A DNA stretch of 64,000 nucleotides, taken from Closterium sp. NIES-65. Its lineage: Eukaryota > Streptophyta > Zygnematophyceae > Desmidiales > Closteriaceae. The translations under genes and the position numbers were made by a program. The DNA is taken from contig CANXME010002105.1 of the NCBI GenBank assembly GCA_948144175.1, forward strand, positions 412,489-476,488, written 5' to 3'. Positions 11,564-61,270 of this stretch are shown one piece after another (position 1 is the first letter of the stretch; every line of letters begins with the position of its first letter). The notes under the pieces are model-generated. The model was not told the DNA's origin, searched no databases, and saw only the letters and a program-made list of their open reading frames with translations.

Positions 11564-11567
11564 TGCA

Positions 11568-11573: not shown

Positions 11574-11813
11574 GTAGCAACTATGTCAATTTACCATAAC
11601 CTTCTTTGATTGTGAAACAAGCTTTTAAGCCACCTTATTATTGTCTCAACAATTAACATCTAACAAACATTCCATTGTAACACCGCGAAACCATTACTAA
11701 AACATCACCAAAACGTTTGGTCTGACAAGAATGCTATACAAACGATTCGTAAATGATTCCTGGATGATTGTCAAACGATTTTCAGAAGCTTGCTTAAAAA
11801 AAAAAAGGTCAGA

Positions 11814-11843
11814 TGATTTCCAGACGCACACATTTTTGTGATG
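11814..11843 (-). repeat. right terminal inverted repeat of element A
   Basis: Read on the minus strand the terminus is CATCACAAAAATGTGTGCGT and onward, the same as the right end of copy B and like the left end of copy B at 40171. Outside it the two copies share nothing (GGGATGGG here, satellite in B). Confidence 0.8.
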
Positions 11844-37950: not shown

Positions 37951-39329
37951 TGCCCTTTTGACCACATCCCCCTTCCCCCCTCTGCCCTCACCTCCCTCCC
38001 CCTAAACCCGCAGCCCATCCCTTCTCTCGAAGACCTCACCTCCGTTCCCTCTCTGACCTCAGCATCATTTTCCCTCTCTCTACACCTCCTGTCCCACTTT
38101 GCCCTCGACTCTTTGTCCACTTCTGTCCTAATCTCCCTTCCCCGGTCTGCCCTAACTGCAGCACTCCCCTTCCCCCCCTGTGAGCACCCTCCAAGACCCC
38201 CCTCACAGACTCTCAACTCCATAATACCCTACACACATCCCTCTCCTCCGCTGACTACAGAAACCCTCCCACACCCCAACGCTTCCCTCCCTTCCCCTCT
38301 TTAACCTCACCTCTATCCAGCTCCCTGACCTCATCTCCCTCCCCCTTTTGAGAGCAACCCCCTTCTACATTTTCAGAAGCTCTACCTCATCCTCACACAT
38401 CCCTTCCCTAGGTGATTTGCCGCCTCCTTTTCGCTTCTTGCAACTAAACTCCCCATTCTGTCGTGACTTCCCTGCATCCTTTTGAGTCCACCACACTTCC
38501 TCATACCACCATTGTTCCCTTCCCTCTCTGTCCAAACCCTCCCAACCCCCTTTCCCTCACCTCTTATCCCTCACATTACCAAGTTCTTTCCCCCCTCACG
38601 AGAGTAGTCCCTTCCCCATAAACCCTCACCTCAAATACCCATCTTTTGTCACCTCCCTTCCCCCTCTCCAGGGCACCTCCCGTCCCCATCCCGCAGCACA
38701 GCATCCGCACCCACAGCCGTTCGTTTCACCCTGCCCACTGCCTTTCACTTCTCACTTTGGCCGACCGGGCCATCCGTCCTCTCTCTTCCACTCCCCTTCC
38801 CCCTCTGATGTGACTTCCCCAACCCTTCCCCTTCCATCAAACCCCCTTCCCTCATCCTCCCCTCGCCTCCCTACCCATTCGAACATCACCTCGCTCACTC
38901 CATCTGATCTCACCTCCTCAGTTGCCTCTTTGTCTGTTACCCCTCTTCCCCATCTCACAGCACTCCCCTTCACCGTCTCATCGGACCTCCACGCCCCCCA
39001 CAAACGCTGCATCCTCCCCCCTAGAGCTCGTCTCCCGTCTCCCGCTCACAACACTACGCTTCCCCCTCTACCTCGTCTCTTTTAATCTTCATCGACCTCC
39101 CCCCCATCCACTACACCTCCCTTTCCCCCCCTACACTGCAGATCCCTTCCCCCCCTACACTGTACCTCCATTCCACCCCTCCACTGCACCTCCCTTCCCC
39201 CCTCCACCGCACATCCATTCCCCCCTCCACTGCACCTCCCTTCCCCCCTCGACTGCACCTCCCTTCCCCCCATCCACTGCACCTCCCTTCCCCTCTTCCC
39301 TGCACCTCCCTTCCTTCTCTTCACTGCAC
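37951..39329. repeat. polypyrimidine tract grading into an 18-19-bp array
   Basis: The plus strand is strongly C/T-rich for over 1 kb (CCTCACCTCCCTCCCCC-type words). From about 39090 a looser array of CTCCACTGCACCTCCCTTCC units appears, which grades into the satellite that follows. No gene. Confidence 0.7.
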
Positions 39330-40170
39330 ATGACTTCCCCCCCTTCACTGCACATGACTTCCCCCCCTTCTCTGCACATGACTTCCCCCCCTTCACTGCA
39401 CATGACTTCCCCCCCTCACTGCACATGACTTCCCCGCCACCTCACTGCACATGACTTCCCCGCCACCTCACTGCACATGACTTCCCCGCCACCTCACTGC
39501 ACATGACTTCCCCGCCACCTCACTGCACATGACTTCCCCCCCTCACTACACATGACTTCCCCCCCTCCCTGCACATGACTTCCCCCCCTTCACTGCACAT
39601 GACTTCCCCCCCTCACTGCACATGACTTCCCCCCCTTCACTGCACATGACTTCCCCCCCTTCACTGCACTTGACTTCCCCCCCTTCACTGCACATGACTT
39701 CCCCCCCTTCTCTGCACATGACTTCCCCACCTTCACTGCACATGACTTCCCCCCCTCACTGCACATGACTTCCCCCCCTTCAATGCACATGACTTCCCCC
39801 CCTCACTGCACATGACTTCCCCCCCTTCAATGCACACGAATTCCCCCCCTCACTGCACATGACTTCCCCCCTTCACTGCACATGACTTCCCCCCCTTCAC
39901 TGCACATGACTTCCCCCCCTTCTCTGCACATGACTTCCCCCCCTTCACTGCACATGACTTCCCCCCCTCACTGCACATGACTTCCCCGCCACCTCACTGC
40001 ACATGACTTCCCCGCCACCTCACTGCACATGACTTCCCCGCCACCTCACTGCACATGACTTCCCCGCCACCTCACTGCACATGACTTCCCCCCCTCACTA
40101 CACATGACTTCCCCCCCTCCCTGCACATGACTTCCCCCCCTTCACTGCACATGACTTCCCCCCCTCACTG
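39330..40170. repeat. 23-26-bp satellite, left flank of element B
   Basis: Units TGCACATGACTTCCCCCCCT plus TCAC, TCAC-less and GCCACCTCAC variants are arranged in a higher-order pattern. Marker units (CACTACACATG, CCTCCCTGCACATG, TGCACTTGAC, CACGAATTCC) recur in fixed order: 39541 onward and 40081 onward start the same block. The second block is cut by element B after CTCACTG and resumes at 60619. Confidence 0.9.
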
Positions 40171-40200
40171 CATCACAAAAATCCTGCGTCCAGAAAACCT
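40171..40200 (+). repeat. left terminal inverted repeat of element B
   Basis: CATCACAAAAATCCTGCGTC and onward, against CATCACAAAAATGTGTGCGT for the right end read on the minus strand. It starts exactly where the satellite stops. Confidence 0.78.
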
Positions 40201-41143
40201 TTGGAAAGAGTTGCTTTAAAGCTTTGTTGAATGATTTATAAACGTCTTGTTTGGTACGATATTTTGAGAAAGTATATACCTTCTTCTGGATGCTTTGTCG
40301 AACGCTGTTCGCATGCTTCTGCGATGCTTGTGTGTTCAAACCTCTCAGGTGAAAACCTTCGGCAGAAGTTTGGTTGGAGTTTCCGCAGAGCAATTTCGGA
40401 GATTGGATCTCATTGCATTGTACTCTTCATGGACATCCGGTTTAGTTATAATGAAGTTGGATTGGAGACTTGCAATGGTTAACATGTTGTTTAACAAGAT
40501 GTTTAGTTGCCTCATCCTAGCATCCAAAATGACCATTACTGAAGCGTTGGTAAATGGGTTTTATTCTCAACAAAAAAGGCACATACAAGAGCATCCTACA
40601 CCCCACCCTCTCTAGTCAAAGACCCCGCCTCTTAGGGTGATCTGCATCAACCTGCTTCTCATGCTCCCGTACACTATGCCTCCCACTACACCCCATGTCA
40701 CGTGCTCTAGGCCGAGCATGCTCGCCCCTACACCTAGCCCCCATGATCCATGCCTTGGCTGCGACCCCACTTCCTGCCTCTCTTCCTGCATCTCCCATCC
40801 CTCCTTCACTAATTGTGGTACTATTGCCCTGCCCGTGCGTCCACTGCTTCCTCGCATGTCCAGCCCTGTCATGCGTCTGCTGCTCCGCCTTAGACATCCT
40901 CTAGTCAAGCCTTTACTGCTGTTTGCTTTGTCCTATCCGGTCATGCCTATACTGCTGCGGCCCTTGCACCACTCCCCTCCGTAATGCTGTCCCCCTTTCT
41001 CTATCCACACGTGCCTTCCCTGATGCCCCCCTTGCTGTCTCCACCAATGCCTCTCCTCGCACGTATGTGATGCCTCTCCTGCTGTCCCCTTTTGTAAACT
41101 CCACGCATGCCTCATCTGCAGCCCCCCTTGTCTCGTCACACCA
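40201..41143. other. left subterminal region of element B
   Basis: The first 400 bp are AT-richer, with frequent TTTG/TTTAG words as in the right subterminal region. From about 40620 the DNA is C-rich with loose repeats of GCCTCTCCTGCTGCCCCC type. No gene is supported. Confidence 0.4.
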
Positions 41144-44100
41144 TCATTTGGCCCTCTTGCCTCCCCTTCTTTTGCCATTTTCGTGCCTTTTGCCCTTCCT
41201 CCGCTCCTGGCCCCCCTGCTTCTCATCCTCATCCTCATCCTCTTCCTCCTCTTTCTCCTCTTCCTCCTCTTCCTCCTCTTCCACTTCCCTCCAACCTCCC
41301 TTGCCTCTGCCTCTCTTGTGCTTTCTCCCCTTCCTCCGCGACTGCCCCCCCTGTTTCTCATCCTCCTGCTCCTCCTCTTCCTCATCTTCCTCCACTTCCT
41401 CTTCCCTCCTGCTTCCCTGCCCTCTGCCTCTCTTGTGCTTCCTGCCCTTCCTCCGCTCCTGCCCCCCCTGTTTCTTATCCCCCAGCTCCTCTTCCTTCTC
41501 CTCTTCCTCGTCCGCTTCCCTCCTGCCTCCCCTGGTTTTCCCCCCCTTGTGCCTTCTGCCCTTCCTAAGATCTTGCCCCCCCCGTTTCTCATCCTCTTCC
41601 TCATCCCTCCCGCCTGCCCTAGGTCTCTTGTGCCTTTTCCTCTTCCTCTGCTCCTGCCCCCACTGTTCCTCGTCCTCGTCCTCCTCCTCCTCCTCCTCCT
41701 CCTCCTCCTCCTCCTCCTCGTCATCCTCCTCCTCCTCCTCCTCCTCCTCCTCCTCCTCATCCTCCTCCTCCTTATCCTCCTCCATGTCCTCCGAGTCGTA
41801 CACCTCCTTTTCTTCCTCCTTCAGGTCCTTCGTTTCGGCATCAAGCTCAGCCTTCCCCCGGAAGGCCTCAAATCCTGACTCGTGAACATACAGCCCACGG
41901 TCGCCCCACTTGAAGCCCTTCACGTCTGTATTGTACACGGGGGTGTGGCGTGTGAAGTGGTCCTTGATAATCCACCGCACATTTCGGTGCAAACCCCCCA
42001 TCCATTCACTGTTCTTCCGGTGGGAGTTGGAGACGTTCCAGTCAGTCCTCTTAACCTTTGATAGGCCCTGGTCAATCTGAAAGTGTATAGCACAGTATGG
42101 GATGGAGGAAATACACCAACTTCAGTGGACACTCGCGTGCAGAGTTTAGAGGCTGCGCTAAATGCCCCACATACCATGCCGAGGGACACCAAACAGCATG
42201 CCAAGCTAGAGCATACCATGGGTTGAGCAATAATTGCGTACCACCATGATTGACCAGGCAATGTGGTATGCTTTGACGCACACCCGGCGCCCGACACAGA
42301 AATTCCGAAATGCTTCCCGGACCGCATCTACAAACCGGCCGTTGGCAAACGGGAGCCCGTCTCTGTTGTTTCCCCACGAGCTGACCCGCTGTTTCCCTCC
42401 TGCGCGCATGTATGAGAATGCGGGGAAGCATGAGACATCCGTGATCATGCATGACTCATGGTTTAGGGTTGTCCAAAGGGTATGGATGAACATCGAGGGC
42501 GGGGGGGAATGAATGGCGAGAGGGCGGGAGAGTAGGGGTGGGCGGGAGATAGGGGGAGGGCGGGAGAGAAGGGGAGGGCGGTAGAGGAAGGGAGGGCGGG
42601 AGAGAAGGGGGTGGCGGGAGAGAAGAGGAGGGCGGGAGTTAAACGGGGGGCGGGAGAAGGGGAGTGTGGGAGAAGAACCAACGGATGGCTGTCATGCGGA
42701 TGTGTTTGCACATGCGCTACAAGCTTGGGCGAGGAGAGCAGGTATGTAGTCGCGTGCCAAAGTGGGGATGCATTGGGGGTACGTGCTTCATCAACGTGGG
42801 GCATGCACGAGGGGTGCATGAGCAGACATGTCAATAGGGGATGGAAAACAGTCACGCAAGTACTCACTCGGTTGGTATTTTTTCCACATCTTCCGCTTCT
42901 TCTTGGTGCCCATCCACAGTTCGGCTGCACGCAGGCCTTCCACCTTGTTGCCGAAAGTGACGAGCACTCTGCGCTTGAGATGGAAGCCACGTTCGTTCTT
43001 CCATGACGTCCAGGCGCGTTTAAAAGCGCCTATGATGTTTTTGTCTTCCATAGCCTCTCGCAGCTGCATCATGTTGATGACGTGCGTCTCGCTGATAACC
43101 TCATACAACACCTGCACGCGCTGTTTCGAGCGTTGGGTAGAAGTCTATGGCATGGTCTGGCGCCTCGAGGCACATCCGGTCCCGGCCCTCTGCGAAATGA
43201 ACCTACGACAGCCGGATGGATAGGAAAAAAGGATATGTGGGTGACTCCCAAAGAAGGGCGGAAACCAGAGGTCGAGAGAGTGGGATTTGGGTAACACGTG
43301 CCGCAGGCCACCCACACCACCACCAGCACCATGAACAGGGGCTCTGGTTGAGGTAGGGGAGAGCGGGGAGATAGAGGGGGGAGAGAGGGGATGAACTAGT
43401 CTGAGTGAAATCATATGGGAGAGGGAGCAGAGTGTGAGAGCACCGTACGGACTGCGTAAGGGGTCATGTTCTCCTCGTACTAAGAGTCACAACCCCCGCT
43501 GCAGCCCGGCCCGCTACACGCTGCGCCGCATGCCACACACGCGACCAGAAGCACCGTTTAGAGGGGCTCTGGAAGAGGAGGGAGAGGGGTGGGATAGAGA
43601 GGGGGGGGGGAGGAGCAAGCGGAAACAAGGGATTGGGCACGTGGGGATGACAGAGAGGGCTGCTGCTATCTCTGCGCCGCATGCCACCCACGCCAGACCA
43701 GCAGCACCGTTTAGAGGGGCTCTGGAAGAGGAGGGAGAGGGGAGGGATAGAGAGGGGGGGGGAGGAGCAAGCGGAAAGAAGGGGTTGGGCACGTGGGGAT
43801 GACAGAGAGTGCTGCTGCTATCTCTGCGCCGCAAGCCACCCACACCAGACCAGCAGCACCGTTTAGAGGGGCTCTGGAAGAGGAGGGAGAGGGGTGGGAT
43901 AGAGAGGGGGGGGGAGGAGCAAGCGGAAAGAAAGGATTGGGCACGTGGGGATGACAGAGAGTGCTGCTGCTATCTCTGCGCCGCATGCCACCCACAGCAG
44001 ACCAGCAGCACCATTTAGAGGGGCTCTGGAAGAGGAGGGAGAGGGGTGGGATAGAGAGGGGGGGGGAGGAGCAAGCGGAAAGAAGGGATTGGGCACGTGG

Positions 44101-47100
44101 GGATGACAGAGAGTGCTGCTGCTATCTCTGCGCCGCATGCCACCCACACCAGACCAGCAGCACCGTTTAGAGGGGCTCTGGAAGAGGAGGGAGAGGGGTG
44201 GGATAGAAGGGGGGGGGGGGGGGGGGGGGGGGGTGGGGGGGGAGGAAGCGGAACGAAGGGATTGGGCACGTGGGGATGACAGAGAGTGCTGCTGCTATCT
44301 CTGCGCCGCATGCCACCCACACCAGACCAGCAGCACCGTTTAGAGGGGCTCTGGAAGAGGAGGGAGAGGGGTGGGATAGAGAGGGGGGGGGGAGGAGCAA
44401 GCGGAAAGAAGGGATTGGGCACGTGGGGATGACAGAGAGTGCTGCTGCAATCTCTTCGCCGCATGCCACCCACACCAGACCAGCAGCACCGTTTAGAGGG
44501 GCTCTGGAAGAGGAGGGAGAGGGGTGGGATAGAGAGGGGAAGGGGGGGGGAGGGAGCAAGCGGAAAGAAGGGGAAATGGCACGTGGGGATGACAGAGAGT
44601 GCTGCCGCTATCTCTGCGCCGCATGCCACCCACACCAGACCAGCAGCACCGTTTAGAGGGGCTCTGGAAGAGGAGGGAGAGTGGTGGGATAGAGAGGGGG
44701 GGGGGAGGAGCAAGCGGAAAGAAGGGATTGGGCACGTGGGTTTGACAGAGAGTGCTGCTGCTATCTCTGCGCCGCATGCCACCCACAGCAGACCAGCAGC
44801 ACCGTTTAGAGGGGCTCTGGAAGAGGAGGGAGAGGGGTGGGATAGAGAGGGGGGGGGAGGAGCCAGCGGAAAGAAGGGATTGGGTACGTGGGGATGACAG
44901 AGAGTGCTGCTGCAATCTCTGCGCCGCATGCCACCCACACCAGACCAGCAGCACCGTTTAGAGGGGCTCTGGAAGAGGAGGGAGAGGGGTGGGATAGAGA
45001 GGGGGGGGGGAGGAGCAAGCGGAAAGAAGGGATTGGGCACGTGGGGATGACAGAGAGTGCTGCTGCAATCTCTTCGCCGCATGCCACCCACACCAGACCA
45101 GCAGCACCGTTTAGAGGGGCTCTGGAAGAGGAGGGAGAGGGGTGGGATAGAGAGGGGGGGGGAGGAGCAAGCGGAAAGAAGGGATTGGGCACGTGGGGAT
45201 GACAGAGAGTGCTGCTGCTATCTCTGCGCCGCATGCCACCCACACCAGACCAGCAGCACCGTTTAGAGGGGCTCTGGAAGAGGAGGGAGAGGGGTGGGAT
45301 AGAGAGGGGGGGGGGGAGGAGCAAGCGGAAAGAAGGGATTGGGCACGTGGGGATGACAGAGAGTGCTGCTGCAATCTCTTCGCCGCATGCCACCCACACC
45401 AGACCAGCAGCCCCGTTTAGAGGGGCTCTGGAAGAGGAGGGAGAGGGGTGGGATAGAGAGGGGAAGGGGGGGGGAGGGAGCAAGCGGAAAGAAGGGGAAA
45501 TGGCACGTGGGGATGACAGAGAGTGCTGCCGCTATCTCTGCGCCGCATGCCACCCACACCAGACCAGCAGCACCGTTTAGAGGGGCTCTGGAAGAGGAGG
45601 GAGAGTGGTGGGATAGAGAGGGGGGGGGAGGAGCAAGCGGAAAGAAGGGATTGGGCACGTGGGGATGACAGAGAGTGCTGCTGCTATCTCTGCGCCGCAT
45701 GCCACCCACACCAGACCAGCAGCACCGTTTAGAGGGGCTCTGGAAGAGGAGGGGGAGGGGTGGGATAGAGAGGGGGGGGGGGGGGGGGGAGCAAGCGGAA
45801 AGAAGGGATTGGGCGCGTAGGGATGACAGAGAGGGCTGCTGCTATCTCTGCGCCGCATGCCACCCATACCAGACAAGCAGCGCCATGAACAGGGGCTCTG
45901 GAAGAGGATGTGGAGTGACGGGAGAGAGGGGGGGGGGGGGGAGGAAATAGAACAGTTATGGTGAGCTCGGAGAGGTGGGGCAGAGTGTGAGAGTATCGTA
46001 CGCCCAGCGCCAGCGTCCTTGAAGCGGGGCATACTGGGAGTGCCTATCACACCGCAGTCAGGCCGCTATCACTGTGCATAATGGTACAAACACTCTGACC
46101 AGCATAAAGAGGTGGGGGAAACGAGGTGTTGAGAGAGAGAGCTGCAGCTATCACTGAGCCCCATGCCACACCTTGCTTAACACTTAAACATACCCACCTT
46201 CAGCAGCTTGGGCTTGGGCATCCCACGCGTTCGACGGACTGGTACGTCTACCGTCGATGGGCTTTCTGGCGCCACGCCTGGATCGAGGCCCACTGCAGAT
46301 GGGTCGCTCGACAGAGACGCAATACGAGGAGGCCTAGACGGAGGGGTGCAGGGTTTGACAGGTCCTTTGGCTCCTGGCCTTGCCTTGAGTGCCGCAATTT
46401 CGCGATCCCGCTGGGCAAGCTCCCGCATGAGCTGCTCCACCGTCTTGCCGCCAGCCACATTGGGCCGACTGGATGCGCCAGGTGTGCCCATGCTCTCGCC
46501 CCTCCCCTCCTTAGTCGCCGGATCCATTTTCAAGTATCCTCCTTCTCCCCTGCTATCCCGTACATCCCACATGGAGCCTTCCACACCGCCGCCACATTCA
46601 CCCAAGGAATTCGCCCACACACCTCCTCCCACACCGTCATTGGCTGCTGCGGCGGCCGAGGGTTCGTGCCGCTTCGTTGCTCCCTCGATTTTCACCTGAA
46701 CCGCGTGACCCCCCGAAAGCTTTGCATGCGGGTCCGTCGCTTCCGTGCCAAACCGCGCTGACCCCCAAGCGAACGGATCTCCCTTCCCAGACGAATCCAT
46801 CTGCTCGCGTAACGCAGCATACGTGTCGGTTGCTTTCCGATCATGAGGGCTTGATGGACATCGTAGCCCCATGGACTCGTAAAAATCCAACTCCCGCTTC
46901 TCCTTGCTACGCACACCCACAATTTTAGCTTCGAATCGAGGTCTCTGGCGCTTGCCATGTGGTTTGGCACGACGCACACTCTGCTTATAGCTCTTCACCC
47001 GTCCTGTCTCCGATTTTCGCTTTCCATTGCCCTTCTTGGTCTTCCGCACACCCCTCCTCTTCAAAGGCCGAGCCTCCTCCTCATCCTCGCTCTCCGGCTC

Positions 47101-48803
47101 CAACTCCTCATCCTCCTCTTCCTCTTCCTCCTCCTCCTCGTCCTCGTATACTTCCTCACTCCCTGATGAGCTGCCTGACTCACTGTCACTGGATCCCTCC
47201 TCCGAACCCGACGAGCTCGAAACATACTGTTTCGTCCCTTGTCGAGCTTGTCTCGCATTTCGGTCGCGACCGGCCAAGTCCACAGCATTGCGTCGTTTGT
47301 ACGGAATCACAGCTTCACGTCCATGCTCTTTCCCAGCCGTGACTGCTGCAGGCTTGTCCTCATCCTGATCGATACCGCCACCACCTCGCTGCTCTGCTAG
47401 CCCTGCAGCGAGAGGGATATGAGAGAGACAATCTCAGCTACACGTCACTCACGACATAGTTGCTAGTGCAACAGGTAACAATATACAAGGAGGGTGGCAG
47501 CGAAGGCTATGCAACCTCAAAATCAACGACAGAGGTAGCCAGGAGCCGCCAACCTTCTATAACGGGCCTGGGCAGCGCCTGCTCGTCGCCACCAGCCACA
47601 TCCAGCAAGAGCCTCCCCGAGGGACTGCCCTTGGCCGCCGCCGCTGCCTTCTCGTTGTTGCGCTTTCCACCACCACGCCCTTCAAGCTCGCCATGTTCCT
47701 GCTCGTCGCCACCAGCCACCTCCTGCGAGAGCCTCCCCGAGGGACTGCCCTTTGCCGCCGCCGCCTTCGCGTTGTTTCGCTTTCCACCACTACGCCCTTC
47801 AAGCTCGCCATGTTCATGCTCATCGCCACCAGCCACGTCCTCCGAGAGCCTCCCCGAGGGACTGCCCTTGGCCGCCGCCGCCGCCTTCGCGTTGTTGCGC
47901 TTTCCACCACCACGCCCTTCAAGCTCACCATGTTCCTGCTCGTCGCCACGCGCAGACATTCCTAGGCGGCCAGATGGACTACCATGATACTCCGCAGCCC
48001 TCCCGCTACGGTCATAACATCTACCGCGTTGTCCTGCACGCCTGCCTGCTGACGGAGCTGCGAGGGCGGACATCACAAGAACATTAGCAGTCCAGTGCGC
48101 GCTAACCTTAATTGCACGAAGTGGCATCAGTATGATCAGTCGATGCAGGGAGTAACGTGCTACTTAGAAACCGGCGATATTACACAAACACGCACCTTCT
48201 TTGACGGGTCCGCCGTCCTCGACCTCCTCGTCGCCTTCAGACGCAGCATGTGAAGTAGTGCCTCTCTTTTGTTGACGGCGCTTACGCCCCTTTCGGTTGT
48301 CACGCTTGTCCTCTGACAATGTTACGGGGGAGCACAATCGGAGCTTCAGTAACGGGAACAAGTCAAACACGACGGCAAACCGCACTTACTGGATCGGTCG
48401 GAGGTAATTAATCATGCAAGTCTACCTTTCAGCAGATGGTACCAAAGACACATACCTTTCTGGCCGGCTTTGGGACCGATGTCATCTAAGCGCCTCACGC
48501 GCCTCTCCCGTGGTTTTGGAGGGGAGGACACGCCCTCGTTAGCGTATGCCCCAACATCGCCGTCGCTATTTGATTCGTCACCAGATGAAGAGTCCCGTCC
48601 TGACTCAACGTCATCACGCGCCGACGACGCATTGTACTTGCGGTACTCGTTAACGATCTCGGCCGTTTTATCTACTGTAACTAACTCCATATAAATTTTT
48701 TCCTCCGGCAATTTCGACGAGTCTGCCAAAACGATCGCCCCATCGGGCCCCTTAATCGTCTGACTATCCATTGCAATGTCTAGGTTTCCATTCACGCAGA
48801 AGT
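41144..48803 (-). CDS. large acidic/basic nuclear-type protein of element B, unknown function
   Basis: Seven exons join in phase on the minus strand: 48803-48456, 48312-48196, 48057-47554, 47402-46198, 43111-42868, 42399-42245, 42076-41144. They give over 1,160 codons; the 5' start lies further upstream (the first exon begins at an acceptor) unless the internal ATG in AMDSQTIKG is used. Exon 2 has a basic stretch (RKGRKRRQQKR), exon 3 has three 40-residue repeats (GDEQEHGELEGRGGGKRNN), exon 4 has Ser/Glu runs and a short coiled coil (TVEQLMRELAQRDREIAALK). Exons 5-7 look globular (VLYEVISETHVINMM, PFANGRFVDAVREAFRNF, VRWIIKDHFTRHTPVYN), and the tail has about five alternating Glu-rich and KGRKHKRGRG-type repeats. 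The composition suggests a nuclear or chromatin-associated protein. I do not recognise the family. Intron 4 holds a 2.4-kb minisatellite. Confidence 0.6.
42490..42670. repeat. G-rich minisatellite in an intron of the large gene
   Basis: Units of about 20 bp on GGGCGGGAGAGAAGGGGA. It lies in the fifth intron. Confidence 0.7.
43540..45960. repeat. ~152-bp minisatellite, about 15 units
   Basis: Unit landmarks are GCCGCATGCCACCCACACCA, CAGCAGCACCGTTTAGAGG, a G-run of 8-30 bases and GCACGTGGGGATGACAGAGA. CACCGTTTAGAGG recurs near 43554, 43707, 43858, 44162, 44336 and so on to 45724. Related partial units sit at both edges (CCATGAACAGGGGCTCTGG at about 43330 and 45888). The array lies in the fourth intron of the large gene. 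Long frames open on both strands are repeat artefacts. Confidence 0.92.
47575..47960 (-). repeat. ~120-bp coding minisatellite in exon 3 of the large gene
   Basis: Three units start at CTGCTCGTCGCCACCAGCCA (47579), 47699 and about 47819. Each encodes about 40 residues. The middle unit lacks one Ala codon but keeps the frame. Confidence 0.88.
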
Positions 48804-50215
48804 CTGAGGTGTGTGTTAGTTTTGACGTTGCAACCTGACAGCTACGCTTCGCGCACTAAAAAATTGTTGAGCTTAGAAGGGACGAGTATCAGACAGGGGC
48901 CTGGAGCAGATGACCGTCCCACAAGCAGGCACGCAAGAGGAGCACGGAGGTGACGAGGGTTGGAGTGTTTCTTGCTCTGTTCCACCTTGCGACATCCAGG
49001 TCCCTCGTTTCCCCAAACAACCAATCACACGGTGGTTAACGTGCATCCATAAAAAAATGCGGCTCCAATGGGGCATGATTCAGTGGGAGTAGGCGTTTAT
49101 CCGTCCAGTAGCGGCAGGGAGCGATACAAAATGTTGCTAGTGCTTAAACGTGCGCTAGTGTATTAGGGCTCACGAAAGATATCTATTCTGCCCGCACAGA
49201 CTTTATGTGGCTAATTTTCATAGTCTTCCACGCGTGCCTCACGAAGCTTGGCGCAGGCGTCACGTCAATAGTCAAATCGCCACTTCGGAGAAACGGGGAC
49301 GAACCATTGGCGCAATTCGTACAGCGATGCGACAGTCTGATACGAAGCCGTTATGGAACACCTGCGATAAGAACGCATGCTCGGGAGTTAGTTGTGAGTG
49401 GTGGCGATTGGGTCGCAAGTCGGAGAGAACAACGTTCGTGGCAATGAACTGAGGTACGTGGTATGGCGCACGGGGGGCACAAAATCACACATTTATTTGC
49501 AAGGCTGCAATATAGTGTTGAAAAAACATATAAATCATTACTACCAAAGGAATGTTGAGCTGTCCAATACCGTACGTTTACTCAAAAGTATGAGCACCGA
49601 CAGTGCATAACCAGACACATCCTTCACGGACCAACTGTCATATTGTTTAAGGAGAGCAGTGACCCTGTTACCTTGATTGTTGTTTAAATATGGTCTAGGT
49701 TAATAATATATTGGTGTCGCAACAAGGTAGCTACTGGTATGTCATTTGTGGTGCAACATTACCAGTGCCATACACAACCAGTTGGGCTGAAAAGCCCTTA
49801 GGATCTTTGCAGGGGTGAACTCTGCGTATACTTGGTGTAGTAGCGGAAGCGTTAATTAAAGTGTTGTGAACCACCTTGCGCTTGTATGCGAGGGCAAAGT
49901 AAATTGATTAAAGCAAAGAGATACAAGATTATATAAGAGTACAAGGAATACGAAGAGATACGGTTGCAACTACTTTACTGTTGCTGTTGTGGTTCGATAC
50001 AGTGACGACTCGGGCAACTGCTCTGCAGCGAGTCAGTTGTGTGTCCTTGCTGTCGCGCTGTACTTGTCAGGTCAACGGTTGTTGACCTTTGACCTGACCG
50101 TAACCTCCGACAGTTACTTCATCCTCCGAGGGTTGACTCGCTGGTGCTTCGATACCGTAGTGTTTTGCTTCGTTTGTGTCTTGGTGTTTCGACACGACAC
50201 AGGCGCTTAGGACCG
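48804..50215. other. upstream flank of the large gene, possible further exon
   Basis: At about 49363-49275 (-) an acceptor-like CTTATCGCAG precedes a short open stretch (VFHNGFVSDCRIAVRIAPM) that could be an upstream exon. The AT-rich segment 49480-49990 shows nothing recognisable; 49840-49990 is A-rich on the plus strand. No other gene is supported. Confidence 0.3.
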
Positions 50216-50504
50216 ATTGTTTCCAACACAAACTCCCATCATGGGGCGTCTCTGCACTGTTGTCATGTAGGGCAGCTATAGTGCATAAATAAATTGGTTG
50301 ATGTGTTGTATGTTCTTATTTCATGCTTGACAGGAGGTGACAAACACTTGCTGTTTGGTCACGTGAGTGATGGGGACTGTTTCGAAGCCTCACCCACGCG
50401 TTCTGTGACTTGCTTGTTGGCTTGTCACGATGGACTGGACGGTGGGACAAACAAATCCTCCTTATACGTCTTGTTTGACAACATAGGCCCAATATGTTCA
50501 CCCT

Positions 50505-51150
50505 ATGCTGAGACATGCTACCCGCCTCATCCCCTCCTGCTCCCTGCTACCTGCCTATGCCTCATCCCCCCTTGCTACCAGCCTCATTCCCCCTTGCTAC
50601 TTGCCTCGTTCCCCCTTGCTACCCGCCTCATTCCCCCTTGCTACCTGCCTCATTCCCCCATGCTTCCCGCCTCATTCCCCCTTGCTACCCGCCCCATTCC
50701 CCCTTGCAACCCGCCTCATTCCCCCTTGCTACCTGCCTCATTCCCCCATGCTTCCCGCCTCATTCCCCCTTGCTACCTGCCTCATCCCCCCTTGCTACCT
50801 GCCTCATTCCCCCATGCTTCCCGCCTCATTCCCCCTTGCTTCCCGCCTCATTCCCCCTTGCTACCCGCCCCATTCCCCCTTGCTACCTGCCTCATTCCCC
50901 CATGCTTCCCGCCTCATTCCCCCTTGCTTCCCGCCTCATTCCCCCTTGCTACCCGCCCCATTCCCCCTTGCTACCCACCTCATTCCCCCTTGCTACCTGC
51001 CTCGTTCCCCCTTGCTACCCGCCCCATTCCCCCTTGCTACCCGCCTCAATCTCCCTTGCTACCCGTCTCAATCCCCACTTCATACCCGCCTCACTCCCCC
51101 TTTGCAATCAGCCTCATCCCCCTTTGCTCACCCTGTCATTCTCATTCCAG
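50505..51150. repeat. 22-bp C-rich minisatellite (element B)
   Basis: Regular units of GCCTCATTCCCCCTTGCTACCC (about 27 of them), more homogeneous than in copy A. The array abuts the 3' end of the protease gene. Confidence 0.92.
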
Positions 51151-51196
51151 TCGCGCTCCACCAAGCTCCCCGCCCCATTACCAGCTTAGACCCGCC

Positions 51197-52336
51197 TCAT
51201 GCCCCACCTCTAACCTCCACCATCGTCTTTCCCCGAAAAAACACAGACCACTTCCTCAAATCGCGACGGTACTGACGGCGCCATTTGAGTGGCGTACCGA
51301 CAAGCTCACACGCAGGGAGGTTACGGAAACCATCCTCGACCAATGTATGCATCACACGCATCGCGAACACACCACAGTCGTTCTCATTGTCCTGCATTGG
51401 AATCTGAAGACACACGGGGTCAATTACCGCAGTGTAAGGCCCGTCCGAAATTGGGGGTTGGTGGAGGAAATCGCGTTGCGAGAAAAAGAGATGCATGGGC
51501 TCGGAGCTCGTACAAACAAGGCAATTTCGCTCACCTTGACGTGCCGTAGCGGGATGCTCGCAGCCCATGCATCAGCGTCCGAATCAATGATCCACGAACA
51601 GCATTTTACGACCTCGTTTCGTAAATACCTGCATATCGGATGATGCTTCATCAATTATTTAGTTACCCCGTTTTGAGTTACGAGACAACAGCATACTGCC
51701 ATTTGAGAGCGAATACCTGCGCAACGGAGCGTCAACACCGTCATGGGTACCGTTCGAGTCAGCGTGCCATAGCACGCAGTTCATGGGAATCGGGTCGTCG
51801 GGTCTCGGGATTCTCTCGATGACGATCAAGCTCCAATGACTCCTAATGCGCAAACGAGGACTAGCATCATTAAAAACAACATTATCATGGCGAATTATTT
51901 CTGGTGCAACGGCACGACGCGGCGAGAACTTACTCGGTATTAATCGGAACTAGAACGTGTGTGAATTCGAATATTCCCAATCCGAAAGTGTAGGCGTTTT
52001 CAGGCCTCGGTGTGTCCTTCCGGGCGTAGTCCCAGAAATAGGATCCAGCGTAAAGCCACTTTGTGCGGTTGCGACCGTGTTTGTACTGCAGCATCCTGCG
52101 AGTGCGCAGATTAACGCCAAAATAAAAGCATGAGAGAACCGTGTCGTCACTGTGTAATGAGTCTATATTCGTGATACTCACACACCGAGCCAATCAATCA
52201 CGATTCCGCTGACCCATTCACCGGGTCGTAGCCTATTGGCGTGGTCTACGGTGATGTCGAGCCAGCCTCCGCCGTAGGGAAAGGGCATGGAGATCGGCTG
52301 AAAGGCTAATTTACTATCTAAGCTTGGAAGAGCCAT
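51197..52336 (-). CDS. Ulp1-like cysteine protease of element B, catalytic residues intact
   Basis: Five minus-strand exons (52336-52182, 52095-51934, 51842-51717, 51628-51535, 51403-51197) give 247 codons with all junctions in phase. The order is typical for the Ulp1/SENP C48 fold: RLRPGEWVSGIVIDWLG near residue 45, VLVPINTE near 103, His108 in SHWSL, Asp134 in LWHADS, Gln183 in IPMQ and Cys189 in NDCGVF. The family hydrolyses peptide or isopeptide bonds at Gly-Gly ends, usually of SUMO. At under 250 residues it is a minimal catalytic domain without the long N-terminus of host SUMO proteases. It is transcribed away from the transposase across a shared spacer. Whether it processes a transposon protein or acts on host SUMO is not known. 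Confidence 0.87.
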
Positions 52337-53712
52337 GGCTGAATGTTCCTGACTTCGAGTTGCGAGTGGCACTGGGGAAATTATGAGGAAGCAGCACCAC
52401 TTCTGACTCTGTGCTTTGGAGCCACGTTACTATGGGTCACGAGTTGCTTTGCAGGTTGGTGCCACATTCGTTAATTTTCGCTACTCGTACCCTAACCTAC
52501 CTGAACCTGGAACATGTCTCAATCGAATGGACGACATTCGCCACATGGGCCCACTTGTCGTGGCTCTTTGGCAATGGGGTCTGGTTCCCCATCTGCTGAC
52601 ATCACAGATACATCCCCCTTAACAGGGGGAGAGCCAATCAAAACATCGGAACGACGAGGTGGAACACCTTCTCGGGGCTAGCGATTCCACGCGTCAGACT
52701 CTCACCGGTAACTTGGTGGCTGTTGTGAATGTGTCCTTTTTCCCCGATTTGGGCACGCGCCATCCCTAATAATGTTACGGCGCGCAGAGGTCCGTCCACT
52801 CCACACATCCACTCTCCCATCTTCTGGGCGCAGTAGTGGATCCACGTTAGATGAAATCTAACGGTGAAGACAGGATGAAATCCTCCAGCTGTTTAGGGTT
52901 CCCATCTGACAGCCTAACACGTTTGTTGCACGAAGCAGCGTGATTGGTGCATACGTGTCGGGCTGTCAGAAATAATCCTGGAAGAATCGGAGCCAGGCCC
53001 CTGGAATTCATAAAGTTTTTCCCTTGCTCGATCTGTTGTTCAGTGTGGTTTTGTCACTTCCCGCTCCGTGAAATTGAGTTTGACGTTCATGTTACTCTCA
53101 GAACCTTGACATGAGTAAAATCGTACCCTATAATTCAGTATAAGAGAGTGGCGTCTGCCCTAATGTTTTCGCATATAGGACATTCCAACATTGCTAGGGC
53201 TCTTGTTGCTCTCGAATTTCGACTAAGTCTCTGGCATCTTGCTTGGGCACTGGAACCGGAGGAATGCGGACAAGAATATGGAAATATACTCGAAATGTGT
53301 ATTGAGACAGTGTAATAACCGGGAAGTTTAGCTAGTGCGCATCTAGTACGCACTGGACATTCTGCAAAGTCTAAGGGCACAATAGAAACTCGTCTAAATC
53401 ACTGGAGACCGTGTGTATTCCCCGAAGTCGCCCAAACACATTGGAAATTAGGCTACGTCACACGAGCACTCGGAACTGCAGCGCGTCACAAAAACACACT
53501 GCAAGTTTCGCTAAGTCCCCGGGACATGCCAGTGAGACGCCCTTCCACCTTAATTTTCCACGCTAAGTACTGCTCAACAGTGATGCGCTCTTCCCGCCAA
53601 ACACTCTGATCCAGAATTCAACAATGGGGAACCATGGAGCGATACGTGTGTTATGGGTTATATGGCCAGAGTTGCTATTGTGCCCGCTGTCTTGCATTAT
53701 TGAGTAGGAAAG
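52337..53712. promoter_or_regulatory. divergent spacer between protease and transposase genes (B)
   Basis: About 1.4 kb between head-to-head starts. An AT-rich TATAATTCAGTATAAG lies at about 53130. The parts near both ATGs align with copy A; the middle is less similar and longer. No frame is conserved. Confidence 0.45.
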
Positions 53713-56700
53713 ATGAAAGCCCAGAAGTGTGGATGTGGATACGTTGCTGTTTGTTATCAAACCCTTAGAAGCCACCAGGTCAATGGCGTCGAATTGTGCA
53801 AGCTCAAGCAGAAGCGTAAGCTGGTTCTCAAGCAGTCGGACCCCAAGCACAAAAGGCTAGGTGGAGGCTCGAATTCTGGCGCACTTTTGATCCCTGGACT
53901 ACTTGCACGACCGTATATCCAGCTGCCTTTGACAGAACCCGCGCAGATAGTTGTAGCCCCATCAGAGCCATCAGAACAAGTGAGACAGGCCGTTGCGGTG
54001 CCTTGCGAAGGCACCGATGTTGTGGGACCTGATGATGAAGAAGATCCGATCGACTTGAAGGCCGAGATTTGCATACTGTCACGGAAGCACGGCCTTACGA
54101 ACGGGGCTATTACTGACCTCATAGACCTGTTCCGCATTCCAGACCTTGATATCAAGCAGTTACAAGGCTGGACAACCTACAGAGATCTTGAGAAGTACGA
54201 AAGCAGCTTCGAGCTGGGACCGGAGCAGTCTTGGCATGTGGCGGAGATTAAGGTGGATCATGAAGTGGGATACCTCTCCTTCAGGTTCCGCGATATTAAC
54301 GTGGTGCGTCTCACGCCTTACAACGTGCGCTTTGTGTGTGTTACTACCTGCGTAACACGGTCGTGGGTATCCCTGCTGCGCCCCTCAAGAGTTACTAACC
54401 TTAGTCAACCACTCATCAAATGGCTGCGTCCACTACTCACCAATACAACAACCCCCACCCCACTCTGCAGTTGGCGCAAGCGATGTTCAAAAAGATGTCC
54501 GCTGTACGCGGATTCATCATCGAGCCGAAGGAGTGGAAGGTGGAGGGTGAAAGACGCTACAGCACTCCCGGCAACACGGACTGGATGCTGAAGGCCTGGG
54601 TTAGTGATCATCCAAAGCTCGATGTCCTTTGTCATTGGTCACTCACGCCCGTTGCTCAATGCCCTCCCGGTTGTTGCTGCTATCTCTACCGCCCAGGGCT
54701 CTCTGCTCTCCCGCCCCTTTCTCTATGCTCTCTCGCCCATTGCTCTCTGATATCCCGACCTTTACAGTCTGTTCACCCGCCCTTTCCTCTCTATTCTCAA
54801 TTCGAAAGCTCCCGAATCTCCGCGTTTTGAACCACTGAGCTTCTCTCAGTGTTGCTCAAAACGGCCGTTCTTGTGTGTTCTGCCCAACGGCCTTTGCTCG
54901 CCTCCCTTTAATCGTTTTGTAACCCTTGACATACACTTTTATCCCCGCTCTGTACCCCCTTTCTTGTGACCGTGCTATTCCCCCTTCGCCCTCTTTCACC
55001 TAACCATATTACATCATCGCACACTTGACAGGACCCGCGTCCGTAAAATCGGTGCAATCGTCTTGGCGATCATTCTCTATTCGGACCAAACGAACTTGTC
55101 CAACAACGGCCGACAATCGGCACACCCTTACGTACTGTCGTTCGGTAACACACCGGAATGGGCGCGTTGGTTGGACGGCGGCACTGAGCTTGTGGGCCTG
55201 TTCCCTAACATCCCCTCCGACCTGAAGCCGGAGGAGAAGATTAGGGTGTTTCAGCTGGCGGCGGAATACATGATACAGCCTCTGAAACGCCTGTCCAAGC
55301 TCCAGGGGTACGCAGCCCTTAAACTCATCACCATCATTCGTATGAACATCTCGTAGTTTTGTGCATCCTACCTTTGTGACATGTCCTTGCCATGTATTTT
55401 GTGATGGTGTGCATACTTGACTTGCGGCCACTCGTGATGTGTTTGGTTAGTATTCACTCATCCATTTCCCACTCATTTCGTTCCTGTAACGCACTCCCCC
55501 CTGCAACATTGCTTCCATCCTGTTACCCGCTGTTTTCCTCGCCGATAACCACCATTCATGGCATGCTTCCATGTTTGGTTGCGCAGTGGGGGCTTGAAGG
55601 TCGAGGACAGCAATGGGGTTGAGTACGTGGCCATCCCGCAGCTGTACTCAGTCGTGAACGACCATCCCGAGTCTAACAAGGTCTCGTGCACCATGTCATG
55701 TAGCTCGTACCGACCGTGCTCCATCTGCATGGTTACGAGAGACAATCTTCGGGACGTGGATGACGAGAGCGTTCCTCGAACCGTGAAAGATCAGAAAGCC
55801 GTGTACAAGCTAATGGAGGAAGCAGAAACCATGAAGGAATTGACCCGTCTGAAGAAGAAGTATTCAACCCACTTTGTGAAGGTATCACTTCTTGTCCGCT
55901 TAAGTTGATTAGGCTCCGTGGTCCCAAAGTCCCACCCCTATATCCTCCCACCGCACTTGGGTCTAAAATAAATTATCCCGTCCGCAGTGCCCATTTGTCA
56001 ACCCCACGCTCAACACCCCCATGCCTCCACCTCAACATTTGTCGCCACCTCCTCCTTGTGTTGGAGGTGGACACCTCGCCATGTTCCACAGGCACGCTCC
56101 CACAGCTCACATGATCCCGCCCTCGTTCATCAAATCTCTAAACCCCTAAACCCTGTCCTTGCTGTCCGTCCAGCTCACACACATACCCTCCCCATACCCC
56201 GCCCATCCTAGTTCCTGGCACACAATCCCACCCTGGTCGTTCTTCTCCCTATTCTTCATCCAAATCCCCAAGGCGCCCTCTTTTCCGTTCCGCGTGCCTC
56301 CCCTTGCGGTCAGTCATTGCTGTGGGATTGGGAGTTCTCCAAAACCAAGTGGGGCAACACGTACCTCGCCCAAACACCTGACATCATGCACATCATCGAG
56401 GCAGGGCTTTGGCTTCATGCAATGAGGTGCCTCGTGAAGAAGTTGAAACCGTCAGAGCGAAAAATACTTCTCGAGTAAGTTTCCCTTTTCCCCCGGTGGG
56501 GCGAGAGTCATACGTGCAAGGGAAAGGGGCATCGAGGGGGAACCAGAGGGATAGAGAGGGGAAGAGGGGCAGCGAGAGGGAAGGTTGCACTAAGAGAGAG
56601 GGATATTGGGGCAGAGAGTGGGGAAGATGGTCAGAGAGACGTATGTTGTGGCTGACTAAGGGGAGGACGGGGAGGTGGATGGAAGGGGGGCAGCTATAAA

Positions 56701-57231
56701 CGACTACGGGGCAGAGACAAGGTAGGAGGTGCAGAGAGAAGTGATTGCGAGCCAGAGTGAGAGCACGCGGCGAGTGAAGTGGGAACTAGGGACGGAGAGA
56801 GGTAAGGAGGGGAATGGAGGGGGACAGTGGGGCAGAGAGAGTTAGGGAGGGCGGGGCAGAGATAGGGAATGCGGGGTCGAGAGAGGGTAGGAGGGGCAGA
56901 GAGACGGACGTTGGGGTATCGAGCGAGAATGGCAGAATACGGCGCCTGAGAAAGTAAGCGGCAAAGGAGGAATGGCAGGTAGAGAGAGGGAAAGAGACAG
57001 AGCTAAGGAGGTACTGCGGGGTTGAGAGGGAACGATACGCACATAAGGAGGCATGGAGGGAAGAGTGAGGGAATTTGTAGCAGCGTTGGAGGAATGCGGG
57101 GTGGAGAGGGGGGAAGTGGTGCAGAAAGAGGGAATTTGGGACAGAGACGTTGAGGGAGGGGCTGAAAGGTGGAAGGAGGCGCTGCGAGCAGGAAGGTGGG
57201 GCTGCTAGCGGGAAGGAGGGGCATAGGAGGT

Positions 57232-57305
<74 letters not shown>

Positions 57306-60300
57306 GGTCGCGTGAGGTGAACGCGGGATTCAGAATAGTGTATTCGGGGCATAGGGACCACATGGGGGTAATGTAGGGGTAAATTTGGGCAGAGAGTAAG
57401 GGAGATTGCGGCTGGGAGAGGGCAAGTGGGGCAGAGTGAGGAAATTGGGGGCATGGAGAAAGAAATTGGGACCGAGGAAGGGAAATTGGGGCAGAAAGAG
57501 AGAGAACGAGGGGCGGAGAGAGGAATGATGAGGCATAGAGGCTGGGGGAGTGGGGCAGAGGACGGAAAGGGATTCACTGAGAGAGAGGCAGGGGGAAGAT
57601 GAGGTGCGATCTAATGCACCTAACTACAAGACCACCCCGCTAGCCCCACCCCTCCCCCGCCCCCCTCCCTAACCCACCCCACCGGCCCCACACCCCCTAA
57701 ACCGACACCCTTATTGCATCCCGGAAGTGCAGCCGCTACAAGATTGTCAAGGCAGCGACTCCGGCGTCTTTGCTGAGACTCCCATCCGCATGGGCGTACT
57801 TCACCACGACGGCCTGCTTCTCAGCGTCGGAGCACCGTGCCATGATGCAAGTGCTGCCCCTCATCATCGACCTCCCCAAGCGCGCCGATATTCGACATGC
57901 CATCACGATCATGTCGGACTGGTACAAGGAGTTTATCCGGGCTGAGTATCACACCGATGCCACGCTTGAGCGCATGGAGGAGGTCTCCTGCGAGTAAGTC
58001 TAGCGTGAATGGGTGTGGGTGCCATGCGCATAGGGAACAAGGGACAATGAGATGGCTGAAAGGGGTCGAGGGAGGGATTAAGAGGCAGTGTTTGGGAAAT
58101 AGGGTGCATAGAAGGGGGGAAGAAGGAAAAAGATAAGGAAAGGGGGCAAGCGAGGGAAAGAGGGGACGAGGGAGGGAAAGAGGGGACGAGGGAGGGAAAG
58201 AGGGGACGAGGGAGGGAAAGGGGACGAGGGAGGGAAAGAGGGGAGGGGGGGGGGGAACGATAGGCTGTGGACTGTTCCGCATGCGCTGAAAAAGGGAAGG
58301 AGGGGCATAATGGCGAGAGGAGGGGCTTAGAGTGGGGGAATGGAGTGGCAGAAACATGGAAGCTGAGTTGTGAGTGGGTGGGGGGGGGGGGGGGGGGGAG
58401 ATGAGAGGAGGGGGGAGGGTTTGAGAGAGGGTAGTAGTACATGAACCCGGGTATTGGGCATTGTCTGTTGTTTGTTGCTGAATTGTTGTTTATATGTGTA
58501 CGCACGCTAAACCGATCCCCAACACCCAATGCCCCAATCCCGAACCTTTCAATCCACCGAAACACGTCCTATCCAGGATGGTCAATGCGCTTGTTCTAAC
58601 ATTCGACAACCAGAAGTCGAAGTGGCTTATTATCAAGGTGCATCTTGTATCGCACCTCCCGCCGACGATCCGTGCACGGGGATTGCCACAGGAGTACTCG
58701 TCGAACCGGTACGAGCAGTCCCACCAGACAACAGTGAAGCGCCCTTCTCGCGGCACCAACTGGAAGGGTGTGGAGGATCGCATTGTGAAGAAGCATATCG
58801 AGCAAGCCGTTGTTCGACAGCTGTCTCGAGCCTCCGGCGGGGACAAAACATACGAGACAGCCATGAAGGAGGTGAGCCTGTGTACAACCTAAGGCCAATC
58901 TTGCCCACCAATGTTCCCCGCCTGCTCCTGCCGCATAAAACCCTCATCACCTCGTGTTTTTGTTTAGACCCTGCCTCTTCCCTTCCTCCCGCTGCCCCCC
59001 TAGACATCCCTTCTAGCATGCACGTGCTCACCATCATGTCCACCCATGAAATGCCTCAACCGCTGCCCCCCTTGACATCCCGTTTTGCATCTACATGCTC
59101 GCATTCTTGTCCACCCATCGCTCCTTCCACTAGCTGCCACCCTTCACATTCCGTCTTGCCCCACATGCTTTCCCACTTAACCACCCATGCCCCTCCCCCG
59201 GCCCCCGTGGGACTATCCGTCGTTCAGCCCCCAATGCTCCCCTACTAATCCACCATATACCTTCATGCTGCTTAACACGTCGCCCCCATCGTTTCCCCCC
59301 CCCCCCCCCCCCCCCCCATCCTCCTCCATGTCCATCCCTCTTACTTCCCATTCCCTCCTGCCGTTTGTCTTTCCTTTGCTCTCCCTTGATCTACACTTGT
59401 CCACCTATGCTCCCTCCTCTTGCTGCACCCTTTGACCTCTGGAAATGCCCCGCTATACTAACCGACTGGTCCCTAATCTTTGCTCCCTCTCACTGCTGCC
59501 CCTGTTGAACTCAAGTGCTTGCCCCTCTCCTGCTGCCCCCCATGTACACCATGCACCCATCACCCTCCTACCCAGGCTTGCACGCTTGGGCGTCGGGTGC
59601 TGACTAAGACACACAAGAAGATGACCGTGGGGCAGATCACGGATGATGTGTTCAGGAGCTATGTCCTTGTTCACGGAGATGAAGCGATGGGCTACTTGAA
59701 GAAGCGGCTGGCCAGGGAGGGAATTCACGACCAAGTGCTCAATGTGAGAATCAATATGGTGCTCAATGCGGGAGAATCAATGTGAGAATCAACTGCCACT
59801 GCCACGTAGACCTGTTAAACGCGGACCATCAACCTCCTTAATGGGCCGAACCCGGGCATGGCACCCTGTTGTATCCACGCACCCGTCACCACCCCATTGT
59901 CTCAACCCTAACACAAACTTCCATTGTTGTGCTGCAACCCCTGCTTGCCTATTCGCAGGTGCACACTGCCATGGCAATCCCACCGCACGACAGGATGGAG
60001 TGGACCGAGAAGGGCCAGTTTGTCAAAGCAAGCCCTTCCGACAGGCACTTTTCAGATGTAGCCATAAATCCAGCTGGCAAAGGGGCCAACTGGTACGGCC
60101 GCTGCTTGATGCTGTTCCATTACGTGAAAGATGGCGTGGCAAAAAAAAGCCGCCTACATCGAGTACTACACGGAGGATCGGCGAGTCTGCCGGTACACTG
60201 GCTGCAAACGACTGTTGCCCACGAAGGGCACCTTCAATTATGCAGTTGTAGATGCAGATTGCATTCTTAGCATCGTGCATGTTGTCCCGTGCTGCAAAGA

Positions 60301-60337
60301 CCCTGCTGTGAAGCTGCTCAATAGGTTCATCTGGTGA
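53713..60337 (+). pseudogene. Plavaka/KDZ-like transposase, copy B, two 1-bp insertions
   Basis: Nine exons correspond one to one with copy A: 53713-54300, 54471-54599, 55032-55307, 55587-55881, 56314-56474, 57733-57993, 58577-58871, 59576-59743, 59959-60337. Exon 1 is intact and starts at the ATG before KAQKCGCGYVAVC (Cys/His finger). Motifs ILYSDQTNLS, VVNDHPES, CSICMV and QTPDIMHIIEAGLW are as in A. Two differences break the frame. Exon 3 begins GACCCGCG where A has GACCGCG, one extra C just after the acceptor. Exon 9 has eight A at 60141-60148 where A has seven. Each shifts the frame by one and leads to stops. The second lies in a homopolymer and could be a sequencing error. Unlike A there is no early stop. 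Confidence 0.82.
57232..57304 (+). repeat. 73-nt near-pure poly-G in transposase intron 5
   Basis: All G except one A at 57265. The matching run in copy A (8560-8578) is 19 G. It lies within a G/A-rich intron (GAGGGGCAGAGAGAGGGA words). It would fold as G-quadruplex in DNA and in the pre-mRNA. Confidence 0.9.
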
Positions 60338-60588
60338 TGCAAATAAAGTAGCAACTATGTCAATTTACCATAACCTTCTTTGATAGTGAAACACGCTTTT
60401 AAGCCACCTTATTATTGTCTGAACAATTAACATCTAACAAACATTCCATTGTAACACCACGAAACCGTTACTAAAACATCACCAAAACGTTTGGTCTGAC
60501 AAGAATGCAATACAAACGATTCGTAAATGATTCCTGGATGATTGTCAAACGATTTTCTGAAGCTTGCTTAAAAAAAAAAATGGTCAGA

Positions 60589-60618
60589 TGATTTCCAGAC
60601 GCACACATTTTTGTGATG
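60589..60618 (-). repeat. right terminal inverted repeat of element B
   Basis: Ends ATTTTTGTGATG, identical to the right end of copy A and inverse to 40171-40182. The satellite starts at the next base. Confidence 0.82.
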
Positions 60619-60965
60619 TGCACATGACTTCCCCCCCTTCACTGCACATGACTTCCCCCCCTTTACTGCACTTGACTTCCCCCCCTTCACTGCACATGAC
60701 TTCCCCCCCTTCTCTGCACATGACTTCCCCACCTTCACTGCACATGACTTCCCCCCCTCACTGCACATGACTTCCCCCCCTTCAATGCACATGACTTCCC
60801 CCCCTCACTGCACATGACTTCCCCCCCTTCAATGCACACGAATTCCCCCCCTCACTGCACATGACTTCCCCCCTTCACTGCACATGACTTCCCCCCCTCA
60901 CTGCACATGACTTCCCCGCCACCTCACTGCACATGACTCCCCCGCCACCTCACTGCACATGACTT
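60619..60965. repeat. 23-26-bp satellite, right flank of element B
   Basis: Same orientation and same marker-unit order (TGCACTTGAC, CTCTGCACATG, CACGAATTCC) as 39636-39890. It continues the block interrupted at 40170. Confidence 0.9.
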
Positions 60966-61270
60966 CACCCCTCTGCCACACCCTTCCGCCCCTCCTTGTG
61001 CAGCACAACCCCTTCCCAGCCTGACGAGGACTCCCCTTCCCACACTGACGGGACTCCCCCTTCCCAGCCTGACGAGACTCCCCTTCCCAGCCTGACGGGA
61101 CTTCCCCTTCCCAGCCTGACGGGACTCCCCTTCCCAGCCTGACGGGACTCCCCTTCCCAGCCTGACGGGACTCCCCTTCCCAACCTGACGGGACTCCCCT
61201 TCCCAGCCTGACGGGACTCCCCTTCCCAGCCCGACGGGAATCCCCTGCCCAGCCCGACGTGACTCCCCTT
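60966..61270. repeat. 22-bp repeat (CCTTCCCAGCCTGACGGGACTC)
   Basis: About 12 units, regular in the middle and degenerate at both ends. A few looser CCGCCTGACGTGAC units extend to about 61410. Confidence 0.88.

Follow-up and report, generated by a model that had tools for sequence, protein, structure and literature searches.

The Closterium sp. NIES-65 window considered here, a stretch of 64,000 nucleotides, contains a 24-bp satellite that breaks off and resumes some 20 kb further on, and the question this locus raises is whether the two edges enclose one mobile element and, if so, of what kind. We find that positions 40171-60618 are a single 20,448-bp insertion in the satellite, and we regard this stretch as very probably one copy of a PlavakaB-type family of cut-and-paste DNA transposons, whose recent activity we infer from the near-identity of its copies. 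Its CATCA..TGATG termini, its 2-bp target duplication, the PF18759 domain of its transposase and the C(2)C motif of that protein are all PlavakaB features, and by gene content it is new: an Ulp1-carrying variant of a known Plavaka kind.

An earlier interpretation made from the letters alone (the sequence-only reading) had proposed one large insertion rather than two independent edges, with its empty site legible in the same array, and both proposals hold. When the flanks are joined (up to 40170 and from 60621, dropping one TG), they match satellite positions 39439-39858 at 419 of 420 bases without a gap, so that the duplicated bases are TG and the empty site can be read there. Nine control joins, displaced by 10 to 48 bp, scored 736-808, against 835 for the true join; five of them were of equal length and the other four 10-24 bases shorter, a difference that partly accounts for the lower scores of these four. 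The next-best satellite register found by BLAST for the joined flanks reaches 94% and is gapped. A second empty site lies outside satellite sequence, where a paralogous stretch (L015), about 86% identical, reads straight across the site of copy C2002b, ungapped at the junction and with TG present once.

The same ends recur across the 874-Mb assembly that contains the window. Scoring 40 of 124 candidates gave 41 matches to the left end and scoring 40 of 138 gave 42 to the right, so copy numbers are lower bounds, and the 17 left and 17 right matches that stayed unpaired did so at least partly because of this limited scoring. When a left and a right end were required to lie on the same strand and at most 60 kb apart, 24 left matches were paired, two of them pieces of one copy (C1704), which leaves 23 copies. 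The window element has the perfect 12-bp inverted ends that had been claimed for it, CATCACAAAAAT and ATTTTTGTGATG, extending to ~27 bp with mismatches. All but one (CATCAAAAAAAT) of the 38 left ends fetched start with CATCACAAAAAT, and all 40 right ends fetched terminate in TTTGTGATG, one with a base change in the T run; CATCA..TGATG termini are present in 38 of 38 and 40 of 40. These ends represent 30 distinct insertion sites on the left (from 36 of 38 ends) and 31 on the right (from 39 of 40), counting the ends caught by the grouping pattern. The sequence-only reading had named copies that end elsewhere, or ends that never occur as a pair, as observations that would speak against it; the search returned 23 paired copies with near-constant ends and did not refute the reading.

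The flanks of these 23 copies share 2 bp at the junction in 21 pairs, three bases in one and four in two, and deliberately mispaired flanks share 2 bp in 74 of 500 trials (15%). Counting once each of the three site pairs that represent duplicated loci with a common left flank leaves 20 distinct sites, 18 of which carry a 2-bp duplication (binomial P ~2e-13 against a 14.8% background). The duplicated dinucleotide varies among copies (TG, AG, CG, AT, GC, TC or CC). The duplication had been given earlier as TG or TGCA; TG stands, and TGCA is ruled out by the rarity of the 4-bp flank match (2 of 23).

Left ends fall into two groups, at 93-100% and 77-80% identity to the window element, and the right ends of the second group's four paired copies are 97-99% identical, which indicates that copies are mosaics. 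At C1760:80250 and C2002:274913 (L046, L048, L076, L077; copies C1760 and C2002b), two elements have a common right flank and different left flanks, and the left flank of C1760 does not extend the paralogous empty site, a pattern that points to recombination inside the element. The window also holds a second copy (~2155-11843 and beyond the left edge), 76-94% identical to the first, whose right terminus, at 11843, is the same; its continuation past the left edge of the window is suggested by a third-gene match at C1807:408236. Contig C1976 repeats the window insertion together with its flanks (G000 C1807 and C1976; L001, L002, L009-L011), either as a segmental duplication or as unmerged haplotypes, and a further right end ~72 kb away in C1976, compared on its right side only, is flanked there by identical sequence. 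Subterminal repeats of the CACTA kind show no clear excess in the two 430-bp ends. AAACG/CGTTT, a motif chosen by eye, occurs there 6 times (a density of 7.0 per kb, compared with 2.2 for the body), where 2.2 counts are expected and 500 shuffles gave a maximum of 7, and is suggestive at best.

What the element encodes bears most directly on its class. We assembled a 787-residue transposase model by joining predicted exons at splice sites, most of which were also found in a divergent copy, and this model matches the Pfam Plavaka profile PF18759 with E 2.6e-22 over profile positions 18-321 of 325; two of its exons, taken singly, also match PF18759 (E 2.8e-7 and 2.3e-6). The exon order is supported by a tblastn match in another Plavaka family of the genome (L087), which follows the model collinearly across 663 aligned positions (28% identity, E ~1e-66); this match is stop-free for the first 501 residues and then crosses one stop. 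We aligned the window protein with ten paralogues picked from 30 loci and representing about five families. An N-terminal CxC/H/C cluster, D194, D271, D370 and C389-x2-C392 are identical in 11 of 11 sequences, and we take C389-x2-C392 as the C(2)C motif that PlavakaB transposases have between the second D and the last E. The same alignment suggests that predicted exon 2 extends a few residues too far.

On the minus strand, divergent from the plus-strand transposase gene, lies a gene for a Ulp1/SENP-like (C48) protease. Its five-exon model of 277 residues matches Pfam PF02902 (E 2e-10) and, in the PDB, SENP2 (E 4.6e-6), SENP7 and SENP1; short PDB matches to designed Pizza proteins were disregarded. 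Aligned to SENP2 and SENP7, the predicted protein has the H, D, Q and C of the C48 catalytic site, which we take to be its catalytic residues. Both enzymes are under purifying selection. Between the two window copies, the ratio of nonsynonymous to synonymous substitution rates (dN/dS) is 0.21 over 664 codons of transposase exons 1-7 (exons 5-7 are near-identical in both copies and contribute little) and 0.16 over 237 stop-free codons of the protease. As a control, transposase exons 1-4 read in the two wrong frames gave 1.5-1.6 with 17-22 stops. Coordinates of these and the remaining features are collected in Table 1.

Table 1. Features of the window element and its satellite target (window positions).
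Feature	Position	Strand	Basis or remark
Whole transposon	40171-60618	+	20,448 bp; inverted ends, target duplication and empty site
Left target-duplication copy, TG	40169-40170	.	Comparison of paired flanks
Right target-duplication copy, TG	60619-60620	.	Comparison of paired flanks
Left terminal inverted repeat, CATCACAAAAAT	40171-40182	+	Imperfect extension to ~27 bp
Right terminal inverted repeat	60607-60618	-	Inverted-end match; end comparison across copies
24-bp satellite, left target part	39123-40170	.	Tandem-repeat analysis; includes empty-site template 39439-39858
24-bp satellite, right target part	60619-60971	.	Tandem-repeat analysis
Plavaka transposase gene	53713-60334	+	Predicted exons; Pfam Plavaka, paralogue alignment, dN/dS
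Transposase predicted exons 1-7	53713-54303, 54471-~54600, ~55032-55307, 55587-55881, 56314-56474, 57733-57993, 58577-58871	+	
Transposase less certain exons	59609-59743, 59959-60334	+	Frame change near 60140 in window copy
Ulp1/SENP-like (C48) protease gene	51200-52426	-	Predicted exons; PF02902, PDB SENP matches, dN/dS
Protease predicted exons	52182-52317 (or to 52426), 51934-52095, 51717-51842, 51535-51628, 51200-51403	-	Upstream gene start unsettled
Third gene, main frame (acidic low-complexity protein)	46177-47433	-	Genome recurrence
Probable upstream exon of third gene	48412-48855	-	Motif also present 5' of a homologue with 53% identity
Possible further coding exon	42794-43144	-	Weak third-position signal only
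Internal tandem array, 152-bp unit	43521-45943	.	Tandem-repeat analysis
Internal 22-bp minisatellite	50559-51133	.	Longer in copy C1845

The third gene encodes an acidic, low-complexity protein whose main frame has no Pfam match below E 0.1, and with it the earlier count of three genes (transposase, Ulp1-like protease and acidic protein) is a fair one. When a link between the protease and this gene was sought, the protease frame showed no strong splice donor close to its end, which makes two genes more likely than one. The third gene recurs: at least 102 matches were obtained genome-wide (100 of 1830 candidates scored), in groups at 93-100%, 76-86% (43 matches) and 53% identity (20 matches). 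Members of the 53% group have frames of 671-815 residues, 19 of 20 being stop-free inside the match. The 1-kb stretch upstream of one of them opens with sequence resembling window positions 48412-48855, which are therefore probably an upstream exon. Third-gene matches of at least 76% identity have a Ulp1 gene within 20 kb on the expected side in 67 of 79 cases and on the wrong side in 6, counts that draw on 76 places out of 320 Ulp1 matches and omit three third-gene matches (second gene pieces, at 99, 70 and 74%). For the 53% homologues, a listed Ulp1 match lies on the expected side in 0 of 20 cases and on the other side in 1 of 20, in a list that is incomplete and does not establish absence; by eye, none lies beside a listed Plavaka match (123 of 1397 candidates scored). 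These relatives are found at C511:1344356-1345555 and 19 more places, with frames of ~700-800 residues. A 5-kb stretch of the divergent copy C1845 contained an enlarged minisatellite and not the third gene.

Several observations weigh against reading the locus as one copy of a recently active PlavakaB-type family. Copy spans range from 8.5 to 42 kb, with 13 of 23 within 18.9-23.3 kb, so there is no single uniform element, and two of the 23 flank pairs (C863, C926) are without a duplication. In the 11-sequence alignment the H(3-4)H spacing, which PlavakaB also has between the second D and the last E, was not recognized, conserved H residues standing at 440 and in PDIMH. In the second window copy, transposase exon 1 contains a single stop and the protease has Y in place of the catalytic cysteine, so that not every copy retains both enzymes. 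In the third gene, 41 of the 43 matches at 76-86% identity are interrupted in frame by one or more stops, in most cases by one TAG, which may mark an exon border; these stops weaken the case for the gene in that group. Exon borders are predictions and not derived from RNA; exon 2 has a poor donor, and the splice sites of the last two transposase exons are weak. Finally, the transposase frame of the window copy shifts in a homopolymer run near 60,140, close to the 3' end of the gene, a change that is missing from 28 other loci representing 26 distinct places (two were read twice), in a survey whose pattern found nothing in 3 of the 30 loci from the right-end search. The frame change may be a sequencing error, or it may make the window copy non-autonomous. 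The element had been called apparently complete, and that description goes too far: ends and genes are present, and its transposase carries a frame change unseen at 26 other places.

Three other accounts of the locus have to be set beside a PlavakaB-type insertion. Satellites are prone to misassembly, and the presence in C1976 of an insertion with the same flank sequence could likewise be taken to mean that two unrelated edges, or an assembly join, had been mistaken for one insertion; the gapless 419 of 420 fit of the joined flanks and the recurrence of the same end pair at unrelated sites make this hardly credible. A classical EnSpm/CACTA element deserves slightly more consideration, in that EnSpm belongs with Plavaka to the CMCT group (PMC12730594) and Ulp1 domains are known from grapevine CACTA elements (PMC2528002). 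However, such elements are described as ending in 5'-CAC..GTG-3' with 3-bp duplications (PMC12730594), as opposed to the CATCA..TGATG ends and 2-bp duplications found here, and no EnSpm transposase model is among the Pfam matches up to E 1, so that we consider this assignment improbable.

More improbable again is a Kyakuja-Dileera-Zisupton (KDZ) element, which the sequence-only reading had offered jointly with Plavaka. Plavaka was first described beside KDZ, and an earlier review by the author of PMC12730594 put it near that group. Against this, that paper gives duplications of 8 bp for Zisupton and Dileera and 7 bp for Kyakuja, compared with 2 bp in 21 of 23 pairs here, and places Plavaka in CMCT; the spliced transposase matches the Plavaka profile, and up to E 1 it has three further Pfam matches, all of them weak and none to KDZ, in a Pfam set not confirmed to contain a KDZ model. 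The Plavaka half of the earlier assignment is therefore retained and the KDZ half set aside.

The PlavakaB-type assignment rests on a recent scheme in which Plavaka is recognizably similar to EnSpm and is moved from KDZ into the CACTA-like CMCT group (Kojima 2025, PMC12730594). In that account, CATCA..TGATG ends and duplications of 2 or 3 bp characterize PlavakaB of Agaricomycetes, and the window element resembles it in its ends, 2-bp duplication and Plavaka transposase, some PlavakaB elements likewise carrying accessory cargo. It differs in its accessory genes, which encode a Ulp1-like protease and an acidic protein, in the many predicted introns of its transposase gene, and in a host with a plant-type rbcS. 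Pfam scans of 22 pieces of the element (20 frames and 2 spliced models) returned no TET/JBP domain. An rbcS-like exon occurs at six places in the host genome, and one such exon scores 197 bits against the best rubisco small subunit in the PDB and 138 bits against 1gk8, which we take to be from Chlamydomonas; we read the host accordingly as a streptophyte.

The earlier suggestion of a group new to the green lineage is not upheld. From a green alga, Auxenochlorella, a 2025 preprint describes EnSpm-Plavaka (PMC12633428), likewise a Plavaka-type cut-and-paste element of the green lineage, in a passage that offers no structure to set against the size and gene content found here, and the Closterium genome itself contains many other Plavaka families, with at least 133 matches from 123 of 1397 candidates scored. 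A good part of these matches (L081-L110 and further) lie in long intronless open frames. The Plavaka giant repeats of Amoebidium comprise tandem gene clusters, many of them for tyrosine recombinases (PMC11244446), genes for which the window element was not specifically searched. A search of viral contigs found no relatives of one transposase exon or of the third protein. Ulp1-like proteases are also carried by grapevine and rice CACTA elements and by Kaonashi/KIU Mutator-like elements (PMC2528002, PMC13317346); those carriers belong to other transposase groups, whereas the protease gene described here stands divergently beside a Plavaka transposase. The literature searched for Plavaka together with Ulp1 under those words yielded no report of the combination, and the Plavaka literature found was mostly fungal by title.

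We propose that the transposase would be an RNase-H-fold DDE/D enzyme of the CACTA-like CMCT group that binds the element ends and excises the element, which would then be inserted at a 2-bp staggered cut whose repair would produce the 2-bp duplication. The Ulp1-like protease and acidic protein would be accessory and, at a guess, would most likely target SUMO-dependent silencing of chromatin or the transposition complex. By analogy with the VANC and KIU genes of plant Mutator-like elements, the two could form an anti-silencing module that removes SUMO from chromatin or silencing factors at element copies, and such a module might explain the spread of an intron-rich 20-kb PlavakaB, with the acidic gene also present, as its 53%-identical homologues, on more distant families; we put this forward as a speculative idea that is on balance unlikely. 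With its readable empty sites, two selected genes and Ulp1 companion, this family extends the structure of PlavakaB and provides a concrete case for asking why unrelated transposons have repeatedly acquired SUMO-protease genes.

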